64,000 bases of DNA from Bacteroidota bacterium. GTDB taxonomy: Bacteria > Bacteroidota > Bacteroidia > Chitinophagales > Chitinophagaceae. The translations under genes and the position numbers were made by a program. The stretch covers positions 1-64,000 of the forward strand of contig JAUZOA010000008.1 in NCBI GenBank assembly GCA_030706685.1, in the 5' to 3' direction. Of the stretch, positions 2,225-36,292 are shown piece by piece. The notes below the pieces were generated by a model, which saw nothing but the letters and a program-made list of their open reading frames with translations, was not told where the DNA came from and made no database searches. How positions within the stretch are numbered: position 1 is the stretch's first letter; each line of letters starts with the position of its first letter.

Positions 2225-2998
2225 TCAGGGAAACAAAGCTTCCGCAATACCAATGCTTTCCGGTTTGCCTACATCTACCAGCCTGTCGCCGCTATGGTCG
2301 TAACCGAGAATAAGATGATCTTTTGCCAGGGCCAAATAAACATCCAGTAGGGAAAATTTCCCGGTAAAAGGCATTAGCCTGAAAATATCATATTCAAAAA
2401 CTGCTACGCAGCTATAGGCCCTGAGCCTCATCCCTTGCCCTTCTCCTGGCGGAGAAGGGAGCGGAATTACAATCCTTTCCTCACCCGTTGCAATATTTCT
2501 CCAGCCGCAAAGACGGTCATTTTCATCAAATAAAAAATAGCGGGACGTTTTTCTGTCCGTGACGCCAATAGTGATCAGCGGACGACGCTTCTCATGAAAG
2601 GCAACCAGTTTATGGATATTGAGATCGGTGAGAATATCCACGTTGCATGTAATGAATTTTTCGCCGGGAGTAAAAAGGTCTTTTGCTTTTAATAACCCGC
2701 CGCCGGTTTCGAGTAGTTGACCGGTCTCATCGCTGATGATGATATGGCTTCCCCAGCCGTTATTTTTTTTTATTGCTTCAATGACCTGTTCGGCAAAATG
2801 ATGCACATTGACGATCACTTCTTGTATTCCGAATTGCCGGAGGTATTCGATGTTGCGCTGAAGCAAAGATTTGCCATTGACTAATGCCAATGCTTTAGGA
2901 TGTTTATCTGTCCAGGGTTTGAAACGCGTGCCGAGGCCGGCTGAAAAGATCATTGCACCCCCAACCCCTAAAGGGGAGTTACTGACGTTGCTCTCCAT
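2225..2998 (-). CDS. MurU-like sugar-1-phosphate nucleotidyltransferase
   Basis: A 257-residue nucleotidyltransferase with the signature GLGTRFKPWTDKHPKAL near residues 22-38. Family members such as MurU make UDP-MurNAc from MurNAc-1-phosphate in peptidoglycan recycling. The neighbouring APH-type kinase (3381-4874) fits the AmgK partner that supplies the substrate, which supports the MurU reading; another NDP-sugar is possible. Two oddities: the first residues before AMIFSAG are encoded by a dispersed palindrome, so the native start may lie nearer that point, and an in-frame palindromic segment (PLPSPPGEGQG, about residues 176-190) interrupts the body. Confidence 0.75.
   Translation of the reverse strand: MESNVSNSPLGVGGAMIFSAGLGTRFKPWTDKHPKALALVNGKSLLQRNIEYLRQFGIQEVIVNVHHFAEQVIEAIKKNNGWGSHIIISDETGQLLETGGGLLKAKDLFTPGEKFITCNVDILTDLNIHKLVAFHEKRRPLITIGVTDRKTSRYFLFDENDRLCGWRNIATGEERIVIPLPSPPGEGQGMRLRAYSCVAVFEYDIFRLMPFTGKFSLLDVYLALAKDHLILGYDHSGDRLVDVGKPESIGIAEALFP
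2427..2462. repeat. Palindromic repeat inside the MurU-like gene
   Basis: The segment contains the near-palindrome CCCTTCTCCTGGCGGAGAAG and is read in frame in the minus-strand gene as PLPSPPGEGQG. Related words occur at 36488-36517 and 38022-38057. Confidence 0.7.
2946..2969. repeat. Left copy of the inverted palindrome flanking a DUF559 gene
   Basis: This carries CCCCAACCCCTAAAGGGGAG. The reverse complement is present at about 3398-3418, on the other side of the DUF559 gene. This copy encodes the N-terminal extension of the MurU-like protein on the minus strand. Confidence 0.75.
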
Positions 2999-3374
2999 TC
3001 GCTTGTTTTAAAATATATTCTTCTATAGCCCGTATTACTTCTTCGAAGTGTGTTTCAACCTGATCGTTCAGGAATCGCATTACAGTTAAGTTGTCCTTTT
3101 CCAAAAGAAGTTGTCTCTGCTGATCATTTTGTTTTATGTCTTCCCTGTCATGAATTTTGCCATCAACTTCAACTGCTAATTTTAGAGCATGACAATAGAA
3201 ATCAAGAATGTAAACTGAATAAGGGTGTTGTCTCCGGAATTTATAGCCGGATGGTTTAGTTTTTAAATAACCCCATAAGATATCTTCTGCATAGGTTGAA
3301 TCGTTTCGCAACTCTCTTGCTCTTTGATATAGATGCTTGACAGCTCCCGCATGCATTTTTCTTTCCATGACCAC
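2979..3374 (-). CDS. DUF559 endonuclease-like protein
   Basis: A 131-residue protein of the DUF559 family, which is related to the very-short-patch-repair (VSR) PD-(D/E)XK nuclease fold. Visible family features are [29 protein letters not shown] and the catalytic-looking stretch LAVEVDGKIHD. The same pattern is found inside the IcmF protein (about 9661-10017). The gene separates the kinase and MurU-like genes, overlaps the start of the MurU-like gene by 20 bp, and lies between inverted palindrome copies. The start is uncertain: residue 1, 3 or 7 (MVMERKMHAG). No function is established for stand-alone members; a role in moving the flanking repeats is my inference. Confidence 0.85.
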   Translation of the reverse strand: MVMERKMHAGAVKHLYQRARELRNDSTYAEDILWGYLKTKPSGYKFRRQHPYSVYILDFYCHALKLAVEVDGKIHDREDIKQNDQQRQLLLEKDNLTVMRFLNDQVETHFEEVIRAIEEYILKQANGEQRQ

Positions 3375-3380
3375 TTTATT

Positions 3381-4874
3381 TTAGTCGGAGTGCTCGTTAC
3401 TCCCCTTTAGGGGTTGGGGCTGTAATGGATTCTGCCAGTTTTTTTCATCCTGGATCAAATGTCTCAGATCGATCTTTACCTTAAACTTATTTCTCAAATG
3501 TCTTGCCAGTGCATCGGCAGCATATACGCTCCGGTGCTGGCCGCCGGTGCAACCGAAACTCACCATCAGGCTTTCAAAATCTCTTTTAATATATTCTTCG
3601 ACGGTCATGTCGACAATATCGAATACACTATTGAGGTAAGGAAGCATTTGTGTCTGCTGTTCCAGGTAATCTTTTACCGCTTTATCCCGGCCATGCTGTG
3701 TTTTGAATTCTTCTATCCGGCCCGGGTTAAGAATACCGCGGCAGTCAAAAACAAAACCTCCTCCATTCGGGGTTTCATCAGCGGGGATTTCTTTCCGGTA
3801 AGAGAAGCTGCAGATTTTAACAACCAAAGGCGTTTTATCTGTTGCCTGGGTAGGTGTGAACTGCTGAATGATCTCGTCGGCTACACATATATCCAGCACT
3901 TTCCTGAATTCAGGAACAGAAATTCCCAGGCTTTGATTTTTAAAGAATTCCCGGAGATTACGCAACGCCATCGGGATGCTGGTAAGAAACTGGGCTTTGC
4001 GTTCGAACAGACCACGGAACCCATAAGCCCCGAGTACCTGCAGCAATCTTATCAATACATAACCATTATACTGGCTATGGAATATCATTTTATCCATCGG
4101 CCCGTCAATAAGCATTTCAAACACGTTCATATAATCCACCAGCAATTTTTCTTTCCATTCATCCGGGAGATTTGCCCTTGCCTGCCATAGCATACTGGCC
4201 ACATCGTATTGCGGCGCGCCTTTCATGCCGCCCTGGTAATCTATAAAATGAACGCTGTTGTCTTTTTCAATAAATATGTTCCGGCTCTGGAAATCACGAA
4301 ACATGAAATATTTATATTCGGTATGAGTGAGATAATTGCTCAGCGCTTCAAAATCTTTGATCAGTTTTTGTTTGTCATAAGGTTTCCGTAAAGCATCGAG
4401 AAAATAGTATTTGAAATAAAGCAGGTCAGCCATGATAGCTTCTTTACCAAATTCTTTATTGGTCAGGCACCGGCTGTAATCGAGACCTTTGTCGCCACTT
4501 ACCTGCAGGGAAGCGAGCGCTGCCAGGCTTTTCCTGAACAGGTCATAAACAGGTTGCGTAAAGCCACCCGTCTCCAGGCAATCCAGGAGCGAGGTCTTGC
4601 CAAAATCCTGTTGCAGGTAATACATCCCGTCATTACTGACAGCATATATTTCAGGAACAGCGAGATTCTTTTTATGAAACTGTTCGGAGAAATAAATGAA
4701 CGTTTCGTTTTCCTTAATATTGGCCCCGTAGGTGCCAATGATGGATCTGTCTTGTTCATGAAGGCGGAAATAGCGGCGTTCACTGCCGGATATCGGCAAT
4801 ACGTCCACCGATAAGGGTTCAATGCCTTTCCATTCGGTATATAGATTTTTAATGGCGTCAATCAATGACTGCAT
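3381..4874 (-). CDS. AmgK-like sugar kinase fused to a RapZ C-terminal domain
   Basis: A 497-residue fusion. Residues 1 to about 330 are an APH/choline-kinase fold: FRDFQSRN near residue 193 matches the catalytic Brenner motif and FIDYQGG the metal-binding Asp. This is the family of AmgK, the anomeric MurNAc/GlcNAc kinase. Residues of about 345-485 match the C-terminal domain of RapZ, with FSYRK, FVFDCRG(x)LNP and FGCTGGQHRSVY; in enterobacteria that domain binds amino-sugar phosphate and RNA. The N-terminal P-loop domain of RapZ is absent. With the MurU-like gene next door this suggests cell-wall sugar recycling coupled to sensing; the sensing role is inferred. The last residues derive from a palindromic repeat. 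Confidence 0.8.
   Translation of the reverse strand: MQSLIDAIKNLYTEWKGIEPLSVDVLPISGSERRYFRLHEQDRSIIGTYGANIKENETFIYFSEQFHKKNLAVPEIYAVSNDGMYYLQQDFGKTSLLDCLETGGFTQPVYDLFRKSLAALASLQVSGDKGLDYSRCLTNKEFGKEAIMADLLYFKYYFLDALRKPYDKQKLIKDFEALSNYLTHTEYKYFMFRDFQSRNIFIEKDNSVHFIDYQGGMKGAPQYDVASMLWQARANLPDEWKEKLLVDYMNVFEMLIDGPMDKMIFHSQYNGYVLIRLLQVLGAYGFRGLFERKAQFLTSIPMALRNLREFFKNQSLGISVPEFRKVLDICVADEIIQQFTPTQATDKTPLVVKICSFSYRKEIPADETPNGGGFVFDCRGILNPGRIEEFKTQHGRDKAVKDYLEQQTQMLPYLNSVFDIVDMTVEEYIKRDFESLMVSFGCTGGQHRSVYAADALARHLRNKFKVKIDLRHLIQDEKNWQNPLQPQPLKGSNEHSD
3398..3421. repeat. Right copy of the inverted palindrome flanking a DUF559 gene
   Basis: The core CTCCCCTTTAGGGGTTGGGG is the reverse complement of the copy near 2948-2968. 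It encodes the last residues (PQPLKGSN) of the kinase gene on the minus strand, so the kinase C-terminus comes from repeat sequence. Confidence 0.75.
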
Positions 4875-8235: not shown

Positions 8236-9039
8236 TCTACCGGTCGTTATAAGAGTTAAAATTAAACGAAGCGGGGCCGTATTATATTTAAAAAGCGTGC
8301 ATTATTTACGATACTTCAGGAAACCGCCTGAAAATTATCTTTTTGAAGTAAAGACAAATCTCATTCCACGAAAAACAAATCCATAAATTCTGTAAATAAA
8401 CTAATCATTGTAGCCCGGCTAACCGGAGATTGCAAAACCATAAAAAGAGACAAACGGTAGCCTCTGCCATACTTCTGGGATAGCTCTGGAATACTTCTGC
8501 CATAGCTTTGGTATATCGGGTGTATGACAATGGTATGCCTCTGCCATACTTCGGGCATAGCTCTGGAATACTTCCCCCATAAGTCTCCCATACCTCTGGC
8601 ATACGGGGACCATACGGAAATGATACGGAAACCATACGAGAACCATACGGAAGCCTCTCTTTTCTTTCTATTTATCAATATTTTAGAGTTTTTCTTTTTG
8701 CAATTGCTTGTGTACCAGGAATTAAAAAATTAGGGAAAATAGCCGGAAACAGGGAATCTCTTTCAATATTTCCGGCAGCCCGGTATACTTTCCCGGGAGA
8801 TTTTTTCGGCCTCCTTCGACTCTCGTTCGTATTAAAAGCGCATGGACTAAGTGATGGGTTGGACAGACTCAGAGAAGACCCGGATGAGCGTTCGGCGAGG
8901 TTTATCTAAACATAAAAATTTTCCGGACAGCAGGTATCCTGAAGAAAACCCAACCTGGGATATTGATACTAAAGCTCTTGTACTAACAAGTGTTAATCTT
9001 TGTGTTTAAAAACTTAATTTTACCCGCTAATAATAAGGT
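8236..9039. other. Gene-free divergent spacer upstream of icmF
   Basis: About 800 bp between divergent genes. It holds the 11-bp-period array at 8458-8650 (separate entry). The rest, including 8740-9039, shows no convincing gene. Part of 8811-8900 (CCTTCGACTC ... GAGCGTTCGGCGAGG) resembles a dispersed intergenic repeat. The icmF promoter should be in the last 100 bp, but no clean TTG/TAnnTTTG pair is visible. Confidence 0.6.
8458..8650. repeat. 11-bp-period tandem array with ATAC/ATAG cores
   Basis: Seventeen cores (mostly ATAC or ATAG) begin at 8469, 8480, 8491 and every 11 bp through 8645 without a single phase slip. The seven bases between cores vary (CTTCTGCC, GCTCTGGA, CGGAAACC). Eleven is not a multiple of three, so all three minus-strand frames stay open and give similar Tyr/Gly/Arg/Ser-rich pseudo-proteins. 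Near-helical spacing suggests DNA bending or a protein-binding platform rather than coding. Confidence 0.9.
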
Positions 9040-12000
9040 ATGGCTTATCAACCCGCTAATAAAGTAAGGATAGTGACGGCTGCCAGTTTGTTTGATGGTC
9101 ATGATGCGGCTATTAATATCATGCGGCGCATCATGCAAAGCAAGGGCGCTGAGATCATTCACCTTGGACATAACCGGTCTGTGAAAGAAATCGTGGAAAC
9201 GGCTATTGAGGAAGATGTACAAGGCATTGCCATTACTTCCTACCAGGGCGGGCATGTAGAGTTTTTTAAATATATGAAAGACATGCTGGAGGAAAATGGT
9301 TGCGGGCATATCAAGATATTTGGCGGAGGAGGGGGAACCATTTTACCGGACGAAATTAAAGAGCTGCATAGTTACGGTATAACAAAGATCTATTCCCCGG
9401 ATGATGGAAGGAGATTGGGGCTGGAAGGGATGATTGAGGAAGTTATCCGTTTGTGCAACCCCCTTCCATCTTCCCCCGGTGGGGGAAGGGATGGGCAACT
9501 CTCCGATTTTTGGGAGGCATCAAAAAAATGGAATGGGAAATTGCCGTTGAATGAAGCCAGGGATATAAGAAAAGTTGCAAGGGCTATTACTTTAGCGGAA
9601 AGTGGCGTGGAATATAAGTATAACTATAATGGATCTTCAGTAACAGTTGGTCAGTTCAAAGCTGATCCAATGATATATGCGAAATTGAAAAAGTTTACTC
9701 TTGATCACCGGAAGGAGCCAACAGTTGCTGAAAGTATATTATGGGATAAATTGAGGAGTAAGAAAGAAGGATATAAATTCAGGAGGCAGCATATAATAGG
9801 CCAATTTATTGCCGATTTTGTTTGCTTGAAAAAAGGGCTGGTTGTTGAAGTTGATGGCAACTATCATCAACTTCCTGAAATGAAGATTAGTGATGAAGAC
9901 CGAACTTACGCTTTAAAAGGATTAGGTTTTGATGTGGTAAGAGTTACTAACGATGATGTGTTGTATCATTCTGATAAGGTGCTTGAAAAAATACATACTG
10001 TTCTTTCAGGTCTTCCTGATAAAGAAAATATAGAAGGCGATATTGATTTTTCGGAAGTCTCCCCCGCCGGGGGAGATTTAGAGGGGGCTCCTGTTCTTGG
10101 AATAACCGGCACAGGCGGGGCTGGTAAATCTTCCGTAACCGATGAAATTGTTCGCCGCTTTCTTCACAATTTCACTGACAAAACCATTGCCGTTATTTCG
10201 GTTGATCCCTCCAAGAAAAAAACAGGCGGCGCATTACTGGGCGACAGGATAAGAATGAATTCTATTTCTCACCCGAGAGCCTATATGCGGAGCCTGGCTA
10301 CAAGAGATGATAATACAGCATTAAGTTCGCATGTACAGGAAGCTATTGACATCTGCAAAGCAGCGGGATACGATCTTGTCATTTTAGAATCCGCGGGCGT
10401 TGGCCAGAGTGATGCTTCCATTTTAGATCATTGTGATGTGAGTATGTACGTGATGACACCTGAATATGGCGCCGCTTCGCAATTGGAGAAGATCAATATG
10501 CTCGATTATGCCGATATCGTCTGCATCAATAAATTTGATAAAGCGGGAGCGCTGGATGCGTTGGCAGATGTCCGTAAACAATACAAAAGAAACCACCAAT
10601 TATTTACCGCAAAAGATACAGACCTGCCCATTATAGGTACGATGGCCAGCAAGTTCAATGATGAAGGTGTGAATCACCTTTTTGAATTGATGTTGAAAAA
10701 AATACAGGAAAAAACAAAAACCGGTTTTGGAAAATTTCATTTTGCTGAAACGGCTAAAGTATCGCAGGCGATCATACCGGCTAACCGTACCCGTTATCTT
10801 TCTGAAATCGCCGAGAACAACCGTAACTATGACCAGTTGGTAAATGACCAGGCAGCGATTGCATCTAAATTATATCAACTGCATGGAGCCCTGGAAACAC
10901 TTCGATCTAAGGGTTCTCCAATCTCTCCGTCAACTGGCGGTGGAGCCCCGATAGCTATCGGGATAGAGGAGGCTATTGCTTTCTACACCGATCAGCTTAC
11001 TCCTGTCAGTCGTAAACTTATTCAAAACTGGGATGAAAAGGTAAAAGAATACGGGAAAGACTTTTATGAATATACTGTCCGGGATAAAGTGATCAAGCTG
11101 CCTATGTTTACTTTAAGCCTGAGCGGAACAAGGATACCTAAAGTTGTTTTGCCAAAATACAAAGACTGGGGTGATATACTGAAATGGCAGGCACAGGAGA
11201 ATGTGCCGGGTCATTTTCCCTTTACATCGGGTGTATTTCCGTTGAAGAGAGAAGGTGAAGACCCGACCAGGATGTTTGCAGGAGAAGGTGGCCCGGAAAG
11301 AACGAACAGGCGCTTTCATTACGTATCAGTCGATCAGCCGGCGAAAAGATTATCTACTGCTTTTGACAGCGTGACATTATATGGAGAAGATCCCGGTCAT
11401 CGCCCTGATATATATGGCAAGGTAGGTAACAGCGGCGTCAGTATCGCTACAGTGGATGATGCCAAGAAATTATATAGTGGTTTTGATCTTTGTGATCCAA
11501 GAACTTCGGTGAGCATGACCATTAATGGCCCTGCTCCCATGTTGCTGGCTTTCTTTATGAATGCAGCGATAGATCAGCAATGTGAAAAATATATCCTGCG
11601 GAATAATTTAAAAGACGAAGTAAATAAGATCATTGAATCAACATACAAACAGGATAAACTTCCAAAATATATTGGTACCGGCAATCAACCCGTTTCACTC
11701 GTAAAAGGAGAATTGCAGGGCGCTTTGCCAAATGGAAATGATGGATTGGGTTTGCGGCTACTTGGTTTATCCGGCGCCGACGTTTTGCCTGCAGCTATTT
11801 ATGAAAAAATAAAAGCAGAAGCCTTGTCACAGGTCAGGGGAACGGTACAGGCCGATATTTTGAAAGAGGACCAGGCGCAAAATACCTGTATATTCTCGAC
11901 GGAATTTGCATTAAAGCTGATGGGTGACGTACAGGAATATTTTATCAAACATAAAGTTCGCAACTTCTATAGTGTATCTATCAGCGGTTATCATATTGCA

Positions 12001-12936
12001 GAGGCGGGCGCTAATCCTATAACACAATTGGCATTTACGTTGTCCAACGGATTCACTTATGTAGAGTATTATCTCAGCCGCGGAATGAGTATTGATGATT
12101 TTGCACCTAATCTTTCTTTCTTTTTCAGCAATGGGATGGACCCGGAGTATAGCGTAATTGGGCGTGTGGCGCGGCGATTATGGGCCAAAGCGATGAAATA
12201 TAAATACAAGGCCAATAAGCGCAGCCAGATGCTGAAATATCATATTCAAACATCAGGCAGGAGCCTGCATGCACAGGAAATTGATTTTAACGATATAAGA
12301 ACAACCCTGCAGGCGCTTTATGCTATTTATGATAACTGCAATTCACTTCATACCAATGCTTATGATGAAGCGATAACAACACCTACAGAAGAAAGTGTCA
12401 GGCGTGCGATGGCTATTCAACTGATCATTAACCGGGAGCTGGGTTCTGCGAAGACAGAAAATTTTATCCAGGGGAGTTTTGCCATTGAAGAACTAACTGA
12501 TCTCGTTGAAGAAGCCGTATTGTCGGAGTTTGACCGCATTTCTGAAAGAGGCGGCGTATTGGGGGCCATGGAAAGAATGTACCAGCGAAATAAGATCCAG
12601 GAAGAAAGTCTTTTTTATGAGCACCAGAAGCATACTGGTGAATTGCCGTTGGTGGGAGTAAATACTTTTTTAAATAAGAAAGGAAGCCCCACGATCATTC
12701 CGAATGAAATCATCAGGAGTACACCTGAAGAAAAGGAATGGCAGATAAATAATCTCGAAGCATTCTGGAAAAGGAATGAAGGAAGATCGGCTGAAATGCT
12801 GAAGCGGCTGAAAGCGGTTGCGATTAATAACGGTAATTTATTTGAAGAATTAATGGAGACCGTGAAATATTGTTCTCTTGGACAAATTACTCATGCATTA
12901 TATGAGGTGGGGGGACAATATCGCAGGAATATGTAG
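9040..12936 (+). CDS. icmF: Fused B12-dependent isobutyryl-CoA mutase (IcmF) with an embedded DUF559 domain
   Basis: IcmF interconverts isobutyryl-CoA and butyryl-CoA using adenosylcobalamin, with its own G-protein chaperone. Domain order here: B12-binding domain (about residues 5-135, base-off motif DGHDAA at 19-24); DUF559 nuclease-like domain (about 208-326); P-loop GTPase ([11 protein letters not shown], 354-364; NKFDKAG later); mutase barrel from about residue 610 to the end ([30 protein letters not shown]). The length, 1298, is well above the roughly 1100 usual for the family, and the P-loop Lys is at 363 where I recall about 213 in the characterised Cupriavidus enzyme. Palindromic-repeat-coded segments lie at about 141-154, 342-352 and 625-642. 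The reading frame is intact throughout, so the enzyme may still be made. Confidence 0.92.
9457..9501. repeat. Palindromic repeat read in frame inside icmF (1)
   Basis: The core TTCCCCCGGTGGGGGAAGGG is a near-perfect palindrome, translated as [13 protein letters not shown] in the linker after the B12-binding domain. Confidence 0.75.
9661..10017 (+). other. DUF559 domain embedded in the icmF reading frame
   Basis: Residues of about 208-326 of IcmF match the stand-alone DUF559 protein at 2979-3374: [20 protein letters not shown] against AEDILWGYLKTKPSGYKFRR, then DFVC and VVEVDGNYH against DFYC and VEVDGKIH. The acidic residues and His expected in the nuclease-like core are kept. No splice or intein motifs are seen at its borders. 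Confidence 0.9.
10063..10098. repeat. Palindromic repeat read in frame inside icmF (2)
   Basis: The core TCTCCCCCGCCGGGGGAGA lies between the embedded DUF559 domain and the GTPase P-loop and is translated as [13 protein letters not shown] close relative is at 36256-36291. Confidence 0.75.
10911..10972. repeat. Palindromic repeats read in frame inside icmF (3)
   Basis: A compound of TCTCCGTCAACTGGCGGTGGA and the palindrome CCCGATAGCTATCGGG, translated as [16 protein letters not shown] at the junction before the mutase barrel. The same CCCGATAGCTATCGGG is inserted in a tRNA-like sequence at 33591. Confidence 0.7.
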
Positions 12937-13040
12937 TTTTTACTGAAAGAAAATGGCCTTATTCAAAAATTGAGCCCAACTATTATTCAGCATCAGCCGC
13001 CATAGACACAAAATATCCGTCCAGCCTGATAAAAATAAAA

Positions 13041-13069
13041 AAGGGCATCCCATTGTATTGAGACACCCT
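13041..13069 (-). terminator. Rho-independent terminator of the PfpI-like gene
   Basis: On the minus strand AGGGTGTCTCAAT pairs imperfectly with ATGGGATGCCCT and is followed by TTTTTTATTTTT. It lies 30 bp beyond the stop of the minus-strand gene, in the convergent gap with icmF. Confidence 0.75.
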
Positions 13070-13098
13070 CTGAATATATAATATATGCAGACAACTCC

Positions 13099-13677
13099 TT
13101 AATGTGAAGGAGTTGGGGTATAAGCGGCAAGCGAATGTTTACCTTCTTCGATTTCTTCAATCATTTTTTTATTAAATGCCGGAAGGTCTTTGGGGCTGCG
13201 GCTTGTTACCAGTCCATTGTCTGCCACCACTTCCTTGTCGTCCCAGAATGCACCTGCGTTTTCTAGGTCGGTTCTTATAGAAGGATAAGAAGTAAGGCTG
13301 CGACCGGCGACCAGCCCCGTTTCAATTAATAATTGGGGGCCGTGACAAATAGCGGCAACAGGCTTGCCTGCTTCTAAAAACTGTTGCGCGAATTCTACAC
13401 AATCCTTATTTGCTCTCATTTTGTCAGGATTCATGACACCGCCGGGAATCACTAATGCGTCATATTCCCCGGCGTCTGCTTTTTCTAAAGCTACATCTAC
13501 GGGCAATTCAATAGACCAGTGATCATGATCCCATGCTTTTACTTTATTTTTTTGCGGTGATACAATGTCAACATGCGCCCCGGCTGCTTCCAATTCCTTT
13601 TTAGGGCTTGTCAACTCTACTTCTTCAAAGCCATTCTCTGTGAGGATGGCTATTTTCTTCCCGGTTAACTTTGCCAT
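13099..13677 (-). CDS. DJ-1/PfpI family type 1 glutamine amidotransferase-like protein
   Basis: A 192-residue protein of the PfpI/YhbO/YraA group, cytoplasmic stress proteins variously described as proteases, chaperones or deglycases. The nucleophile elbow VAAICHGPQLLIE carries Cys near residue 110 followed by His, as in the family, and the acidic residue of the nucleophile contact sits in the N-terminal TENGFEEVELTSP. A hairpin terminator follows it and there is about 120 bp to the next gene, so it is probably monocistronic. The exact reaction of the family is debated. Confidence 0.88.
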   Translation of the reverse strand: MAKLTGKKIAILTENGFEEVELTSPKKELEAAGAHVDIVSPQKNKVKAWDHDHWSIELPVDVALEKADAGEYDALVIPGGVMNPDKMRANKDCVEFAQQFLEAGKPVAAICHGPQLLIETGLVAGRSLTSYPSIRTDLENAGAFWDDKEVVADNGLVTSRSPKDLPAFNKKMIEEIEEGKHSLAAYTPTPSH

Positions 13678-36255: not shown

Positions 36256-36292
36256 AGCCTCCCCCAACCGGGGGAGGTTTAGAGGGGGCTGC
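36256..36292. repeat. Palindromic repeat after the tRNA-like cluster
   Basis: The core CCTCCCCCAACCGGGGGAGG followed by TTTAGAGGGGGCTG closely matches the repeat inside icmF at 10063-10098. Confidence 0.75.

Follow-up and report, generated by a model that had tools for sequence, protein, structure and literature searches.

The window, by which we mean the whole 64-kb stretch of DNA analysed, contains on its forward strand, at positions 9040-12936, the gene icmF for a fused isobutyryl-CoA mutase/GTPase, whose frame runs open through an inserted domain and was recognised by both Pfam and NCBIfam. The stop-free frame encodes 1298 aa and matched the NCBIfam model of IcmF (NF045497) with 1729 bits (cut-off 1500). 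Precisely, the domain order given by Pfam was B12-binding at residues 10-110, DUF559 at residues 216-322 and MeaB GTPase at residues 350-564. The DUF559 match (PF04480) reached 95 bits versus a cut-off of 20.6, covered positions 3-108 of a profile of 109 and retained the Asp, Glu, Asp and His residues of the motif (aDF ... vEvDGnyH). The original prediction had described an intact frame of 1298 codons holding, between the B12 and GTPase domains, a complete DUF559 domain with its acidic and His residues kept; this was borne out, and the domain, which occupies 9685-10005 of the forward strand, had been placed correctly. A displaced P-loop and a lack of intein motifs had been noticed as well, and both observations hold: measured from the stop codon upstream of the frame to a point 60 aa beyond the P-loop, the stretch was 414 aa in the IcmF of the window versus 218-308 aa in the IcmF loci without DUF559 (27 of the 30 considered; the shortest of them ends at a contig end), and no Hint or intein domain was found in IcmF by Pfam.

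The Pfam match, the motif and a structure model assign residues 216-322 to the PD-(D/E)XK nucleases, close to the Vsr/EDxHD type. The structure model of the domain (pLDDT 86) was compared with known folds and gave Z 14.1 with NGO0050 (3HRL), Z 10.6 with I-Bth0305I (3R3P) and Z 9.0 with Vsr (1CW0), and the sequence profile also matched 3R3P (I-Bth0305I) with an E-value of 7.6e-7. By fold and conserved residues the DUF559 insert is a predicted nuclease of the EDxHD/Vsr-like type, and no extra DNA-binding part was seen in it. DUF559 was linked to Vsr-like nucleases earlier in Caulobacter, according to PMC12907096. When residues 1-617 of IcmF were modelled, DUF559 appeared as a confident domain of its own (block means 84-96, with one of 70) between linkers of low confidence; the model was weak overall (mean pLDDT 63, pTM 0.36), with GTPase block means of 27-71, and its GTPase part is poor because the alignment held no GTPase rows.

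Two translated arms of an inverted repeat, each of them itself a hairpin, bracket DUF559 at 9459-9486 and 10060-10087 of the forward strand; they pair with each other and constitute the top-scoring inverted repeat of the icmF region. Between the left arm and DUF559 there is a piece of native IcmF linker (9502-9606, forward strand), to which a similar stretch corresponds in the relatives with an empty linker, and hence the icmF element is not one clean block. A 20-mer of the right arm occurs exactly at two further places of the genome, and at more with 0-2 mismatches, but these counts are not usable as evidence because a reversed-pattern control gave counts as high or nearly as high, the pattern being almost symmetric. 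The window as a whole contains five C/G hairpins, including both icmF arms, versus 0 to 2 in ten shuffles. A solo palindrome of the family of the right icmF arm is located at 36258-36277, outside frames of at least 150 aa. A candidate second palindromic peptide of the solo kind (CCGATAGCTATCGG) may be present at 10906-10980 of the forward strand, in the GTPase-mutase linker of IcmF, as far as the letters alone can tell. In the same linker of another locus (L155) a palindrome-like peptide was seen by eye.

The second DUF559 copy of the window is a stand-alone gene of 129 aa, located between two genes on the reverse strand (2979-3368), with terminal inverted repeats at 2951-2982 and 3396-3427 that agree in 29 of 32 positions. 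The first of these arms contains the likely start codon (2951-2953) of the gene that follows. A solo in-frame palindrome (..IPLPSPPGEGQG..) is located at 2438-2459 of the reverse strand, in a gene (2225-2953) next to the stand-alone DUF559 that looks by eye like a nucleotidyltransferase; there the solo palindrome peptide reads PLPSPPGEGQG.

Distribution among genomes and host proteins

We considered a sample of 148 genomes, consisting of that of the window and 147 relatives, 70 of which contained a DUF559 match; at the level of the phylum, a match was present in 222 of the 395 genomes sampled. For the 120 matches above 60 bits in the 148 genomes, among which a double insert (G019) accounts for two, the frames were at least 250 aa long in 54 cases, at least 180 aa in 57 and shorter than 180 aa in 63. 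This was taken as the fair count, since a separate tally, with 57 of 69 ORFs in frames of at least 180 aa, is biased by 35 loci taken for their long frames. Of the five DUF559 matches found in the genome of the window, two are embedded in frame within larger proteins, namely IcmF and chorismate synthase. When we scanned with Bacteroidota sequences, 70 of the best 80 named loci among the matches listed had frames of 180 aa or more, and judging by their titles 78 of the 80 belonged to Bacteroidota, one to a Balneolales MAG and one to a Nitrotoga MAG. A MetH with DUF559 was observed on a contig labelled Candidatus Nitrotoga (L127), which is perhaps a mis-binned contig of Bacteroidota.

A search for other proteins with internal DUF559, which had been suggested from the start, returned many of them, in unrelated and often essential hosts of Bacteroidota. 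The hosts, identified by Pfam or by motif, included LeuS, MetH, IleS, MetG, AroC, CinA, RecG, UvrA, adenine deaminase, HsdR and IcmF. Host domains flanked DUF559 on both sides in 9 of the 10 proteins scanned with Pfam, and in the tenth DUF559 was followed by guanylate kinase. In IcmF and 10 other DUF559-bearing proteins the Pfam matches consisted only of host domains and DUF559 (or the related MTES_1575 and DUF2726), without any recognised transposase and, at E-values up to 0.001, without a Hint domain. As for RNA elements, no Rfam match was obtained at 8900-13100 of the window (E up to 0.1), and no intron was found in 11 other loci at Rfam gathering scores, the matches there being only SAM riboswitch, tRNA and sRNA. 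A defence gene was considered and rejected as an identity of the domain: PADLOC gave a weak 'HEase' match (E 0.006), and the matches in PHROGs were weak as well (best E 0.0005).

The motif D..ExDGxxH was intact in 145 of the 148 domains collected. The three misses were L066, which lost the Glu, L024, with Ser for Gly, and L173, in which the motif was kept except for an Ala outside the pattern. L066 is the CinA of G046, in which the insert without the catalytic Glu still keeps the frame; it may be a degenerate copy that has become stuck in this host.

Insertion sites and palindromes

The inserts occupy variable loops and linkers, in many cases a few residues away from a motif that is conserved; as examples, the insert stands directly before KILMATVKGDVHDIGKN in MetH and directly before VYTTRPDTIFG in LeuS. 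MetH is occupied at several sites and LeuS at two, both of which are filled in one protein of 1315 aa (G019). IcmF, AroC, LeuS and MetH each have a fixed site at which both empty and filled alleles were seen. Within 99 genomes including that of the window, 95 of them with an IcmF match, DUF559 was located between the B12 and GTPase domains in four (G000, G018, G044 and G036), and the IcmF of G099 had it at a position different from the B12-GTPase linker. In the genus of the window, the IcmF linker was found empty, with DUF559 (G000) or, by eye, with a palindrome-like peptide without DUF559 (G003 and G006). The AroC site was either empty or full. Site 1 of LeuS was empty in most relatives shown, held a solo palindrome in the genome of the window and was full in G005, G018, G019, G034 and G032; at site 2 the full element was present in G019, G070 and G013, and G000 as well as G005 had a solo palindrome there. 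In G005, G013, G019, G032 and G034 there was one LeuS match each (E up to 1e-15), and it is this sole match that bears the insert; the working synthetase of these genomes must therefore be either the form with the insert or one from which the insert has somehow been taken out.

In Flavobacterium, 183 of 199 genomes had a MetH match, and most of the frames listed were near 890-940 aa in length. The MetH site was filled in 12 of the 43 loci that we read, 13 of the 43 having been chosen mainly for their long frames, and three of these 13 (L270, L271 and L282) did not have the site filled. In the 12 filled proteins the insert replaces 8-12 linker residues, with a common right junction. No target-site duplication was seen by eye at the MetH junctions, where the empty and the filled alleles differ by the replaced residues. 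At L270, in one Flavobacterium genome, the MetH site holds a different in-frame palindrome (GCTCGACTTCGTCGAGC); being distinct, it indicates that palindromes of at least two families occur at this position.

Solo in-frame palindromes were also found, within one genus, in proteins whose names were given by eye from about 90 residues, that is, thymidylate synthase (L307), RecQ (L311 and L319), RarA (L290, L300 and L306), NuoD (L288), HisD (L316) and TrpE (L304, L315 and L320). The TrpE palindrome is at approximately the same place in the three genomes. The one of L315 comes from a genome without a DUF559 match (G002).

We considered the flanks of a copy as bearing an inverted repeat if their score was better than that of all of 100 shuffles. 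Of the 119 copies whose frames span at least 250 aa, 77 had such a repeat, as did 19 of the 26 others (3 of the 148 copies, with short or N-holding flanks, were left out); in the remaining 42 long-frame copies no significant inverted repeat was seen. When flanks taken from different copies were combined as a control, 20 of 95 pairs also scored, because the palindromes form families; hence part of the repeat signal is due to a shared palindrome family. A typical arm reads CCTCACCCC-nnn-CCCCTCTCC followed by the hairpin partner, and the repeats with inner hairpins translate as Pro/Gly-rich linkers. Of the 60 genomes whose best DUF559 match had an E-value up to 1e-15, 26 contained the hairpin CCTCTCCNNNGGAGAGG, versus 11 of the 88 without DUF559 (Fisher P 3e-5, uncorrected for the relatedness of the genomes), the association becoming weaker (P 0.011) if two palindromes were subtracted for each DUF559 match; a control for this pattern gave 1 match, in 1 genome.

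In a tree of the 148 domains, built on 106 columns and with half of its forks unresolved, the copies grouped by host site, with 48 label changes versus a mean of 105 after shuffling and with none of 200 shuffles as low. A single clade (97) united the 7 RecG copies, and the IcmF copies, of which there are 4, were together (87). Either homing or vertical descent can produce such clustering by host site. As for the genome of the window, its five copies are far apart, scattered over the tree, and a recent spread within this genome was thus rejected.

In MetH the dN/dS of the element had a median of 0.17 (58 of 66 pairs with finite values) and was 0.06-0.10 in the seven closest pairs; judging from these ratios, the nuclease is under purifying selection. 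The median synonymous divergence of the MetH pairs was 0.66 for the element versus 0.68 and 0.69 for the flanks, and in 19 of 28 same-site pairs, many of whose values are near saturation, the synonymous divergence of the element was equal to or higher than that of the host. Since the element is as diverged as its host in most pairs, most copies look long resident. Two MetH pairs had elements more alike than their hosts: G703/G509, with synonymous changes at 17/71 in the element versus 200/405 in the host flanks (pS 0.24 versus 0.49, P 4e-5 uncorrected), and G573/G654, with 25/68 versus 231/402 (P 0.0013 uncorrected). They had been selected out of the 66 MetH pairs because their elements were the most similar; as another 28 pairs were also tested, their P values need a correction for about 94 pairs in all, which G703/G509 survives and G573/G654 and an HsdR pair (P 0.004) do not. 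We infer from the substitution counts that the element of G703/G509 is younger than its host gene, so that recent lateral movement is clear once.

Interpretation and nearest known systems

We consider it probable that the insert in IcmF is a copy of a palindrome-flanked nuclease element of the homing type, which resides in frame in conserved genes and does so without splicing. The mobile element would consist of a small DUF559 endonuclease with a C/G-rich inverted repeat on either side, each repeat forming a hairpin by itself, and it would stay in the translated host protein, in which the repeats would act as flexible Pro/Gly/Ser-rich linkers and the nuclease as an independent domain. The nuclease would cut an empty or palindrome-only allele, the repair of the break would copy the element in (homing), and rare jumps to new sites might take place via the shared palindromes. 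By residing in indispensable genes the element would be shielded from deletion in the way that inteins are, yet with no splicing involved; it would spread selfishly, and we propose no benefit to IcmF. That a nuclease-like domain is tolerated in IcmF, one of the two options of the original prediction, stands, whereas a one-off fusion does not, the insert being a copy of a dispersed, often palindrome-flanked element found in many unrelated proteins.

A further reading, which we put forward tentatively and with less than even confidence, is that these copies represent a new selfish class, i.e. a non-splicing homing nuclease permanently inside essential proteins, whose palindromic ends would be both DNA target and peptide linker. 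Any palindrome that already lies in frame in a different gene would then offer a landing site, and the nuclease would be copied into it by the repair of a break. The solo palindromes in the thymidylate synthase-, RarA-, NuoD-, RecQ- and TrpE-like proteins and in LeuS would, on this view, represent its footprints or its unoccupied docking sites.

A transposon with terminal inverted repeats, whose transposase DUF559 would cut at its own repeats and carry or copy the element to other loci, with only the in-frame insertions into loops surviving, would account for the repeats of the stand-alone copy of the window (29/32 positions), for the solo palindromes scattered through the genome and for the abundance of stand-alone copies (63/120 matches in frames shorter than 180 aa). 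We regard it as unlikely, because the copies group by host site across genera, with the five of the genome of the window scattered over the tree, because the MetH junctions showed no target-site duplication, and because the best folds were a putative endonuclease, a homing endonuclease and Vsr, and no known transposase.

An unrecognised kind of splicing, by an unknown type of intein or intron, could remove the insert from the protein or from the mRNA. Like an intein, the insert adjoins motifs that are highly conserved in essential genes, and the inverted repeats could pair in RNA. Nevertheless, this explanation seems quite improbable, given that neither a Hint domain nor, at the thresholds used, an Rfam intron was found, that the linkers vary in length and sequence and that the inserts keep the frame open, which would be needless if they were removed from the RNA.

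The domain could instead be a domesticated fusion, i.e. a nuclease kept for a service to the host enzyme or to the cell, such as defence or repair, and its purifying selection and long residence are what such a service would leave; in PMC12907096, moreover, a DUF559 protein is implicated in the DNA damage response of Caulobacter. We give little credit to this explanation, since the hosts are unrelated, the presence is patchy within a genus, the loop sites recur, stand-alone copies exist and the orthologues are mostly without the insert in the IcmF, AroC, LeuS and MetH samples. A role of the nuclease within IcmF, the other option initially proposed, is likewise unsupported, because the same element is present in tRNA synthetases, helicases and methionine synthase and 27 of the 30 nearest IcmF proteins are without DUF559.

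The latter count also refutes the reading of DUF559 as an ancestral IcmF domain, and an assembly error is very unlikely because the arrangement recurs in many genomes, among them the single-contig G010 (L044) and named cultured strains, so that this pair of explanations can practically be dismissed.

Among known systems, inteins with a homing endonuclease place a nuclease in frame in conserved genes, in site-specific families and with patchy presence. The DUF559 inserts resemble them in all these respects and differ in that no splicing domain was found in their hosts and that the insert apparently stays in the protein. REP palindromes with RAYT transposase genes are dispersed palindromes as well, some of which flank a nuclease gene as some do here; the difference is that many of the palindromes described here are intragenic, and DUF559 is, we assume, not a RAYT transposase.

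Rickettsia palindromic elements (RPE) are short palindromes of about 150 bp that have entered numerous unrelated genes without breaking the frame and are translated as a short peptide of the host protein, as described in the review PMC10969869. In-frame palindromic insertions translated with the host occur here too, the solo palindromes being the closer counterpart, whereas in the full elements the repeats enclose a complete DUF559 domain, about 105 aa long, in place of the short peptide given for RPE in that text. The DUF559 element may thus be likened to the homing half of an intein without the splicing half, or to an RPE with a nuclease inside.

The nearest elements that we found with homing into a conserved gene and without protein splicing are the WHO elements of yeast, which, according to PMC7282813, replace the 3′ end of FBA1; the present elements instead belong to bacteria, are found at many loci, have inverted repeats and lie within the protein. 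With I-Bth0305I and Vsr the DUF559 insert shares the fold of the catalytic domain, and its sequence profile matches I-Bth0305I; it appears as a lone catalytic domain, whereas I-Bth0305I has long DNA-binding regions, as stated in PMC3943268. No report of in-frame DUF559, or of coding palindromes in Bacteroidota, was found among open-licence papers of PubMed Central judged by their titles and the openings of their abstracts.

In PMC3943268, the association with self-splicing sequences is said to free homing nucleases to invade conserved genes. If confirmed, the elements described here would provide another route by which selfish DNA can reside inside essential genes, namely tolerance in the finished protein. 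They would also give a biology to DUF559, listed by Pfam as of unknown function, explain why over-long forms of housekeeping enzymes exist in Bacteroidota and alert annotators to the nature of such 'fusions' as insertions. The inserts are natural examples of how a domain of some 120 residues can be accommodated by loops of essential enzymes.
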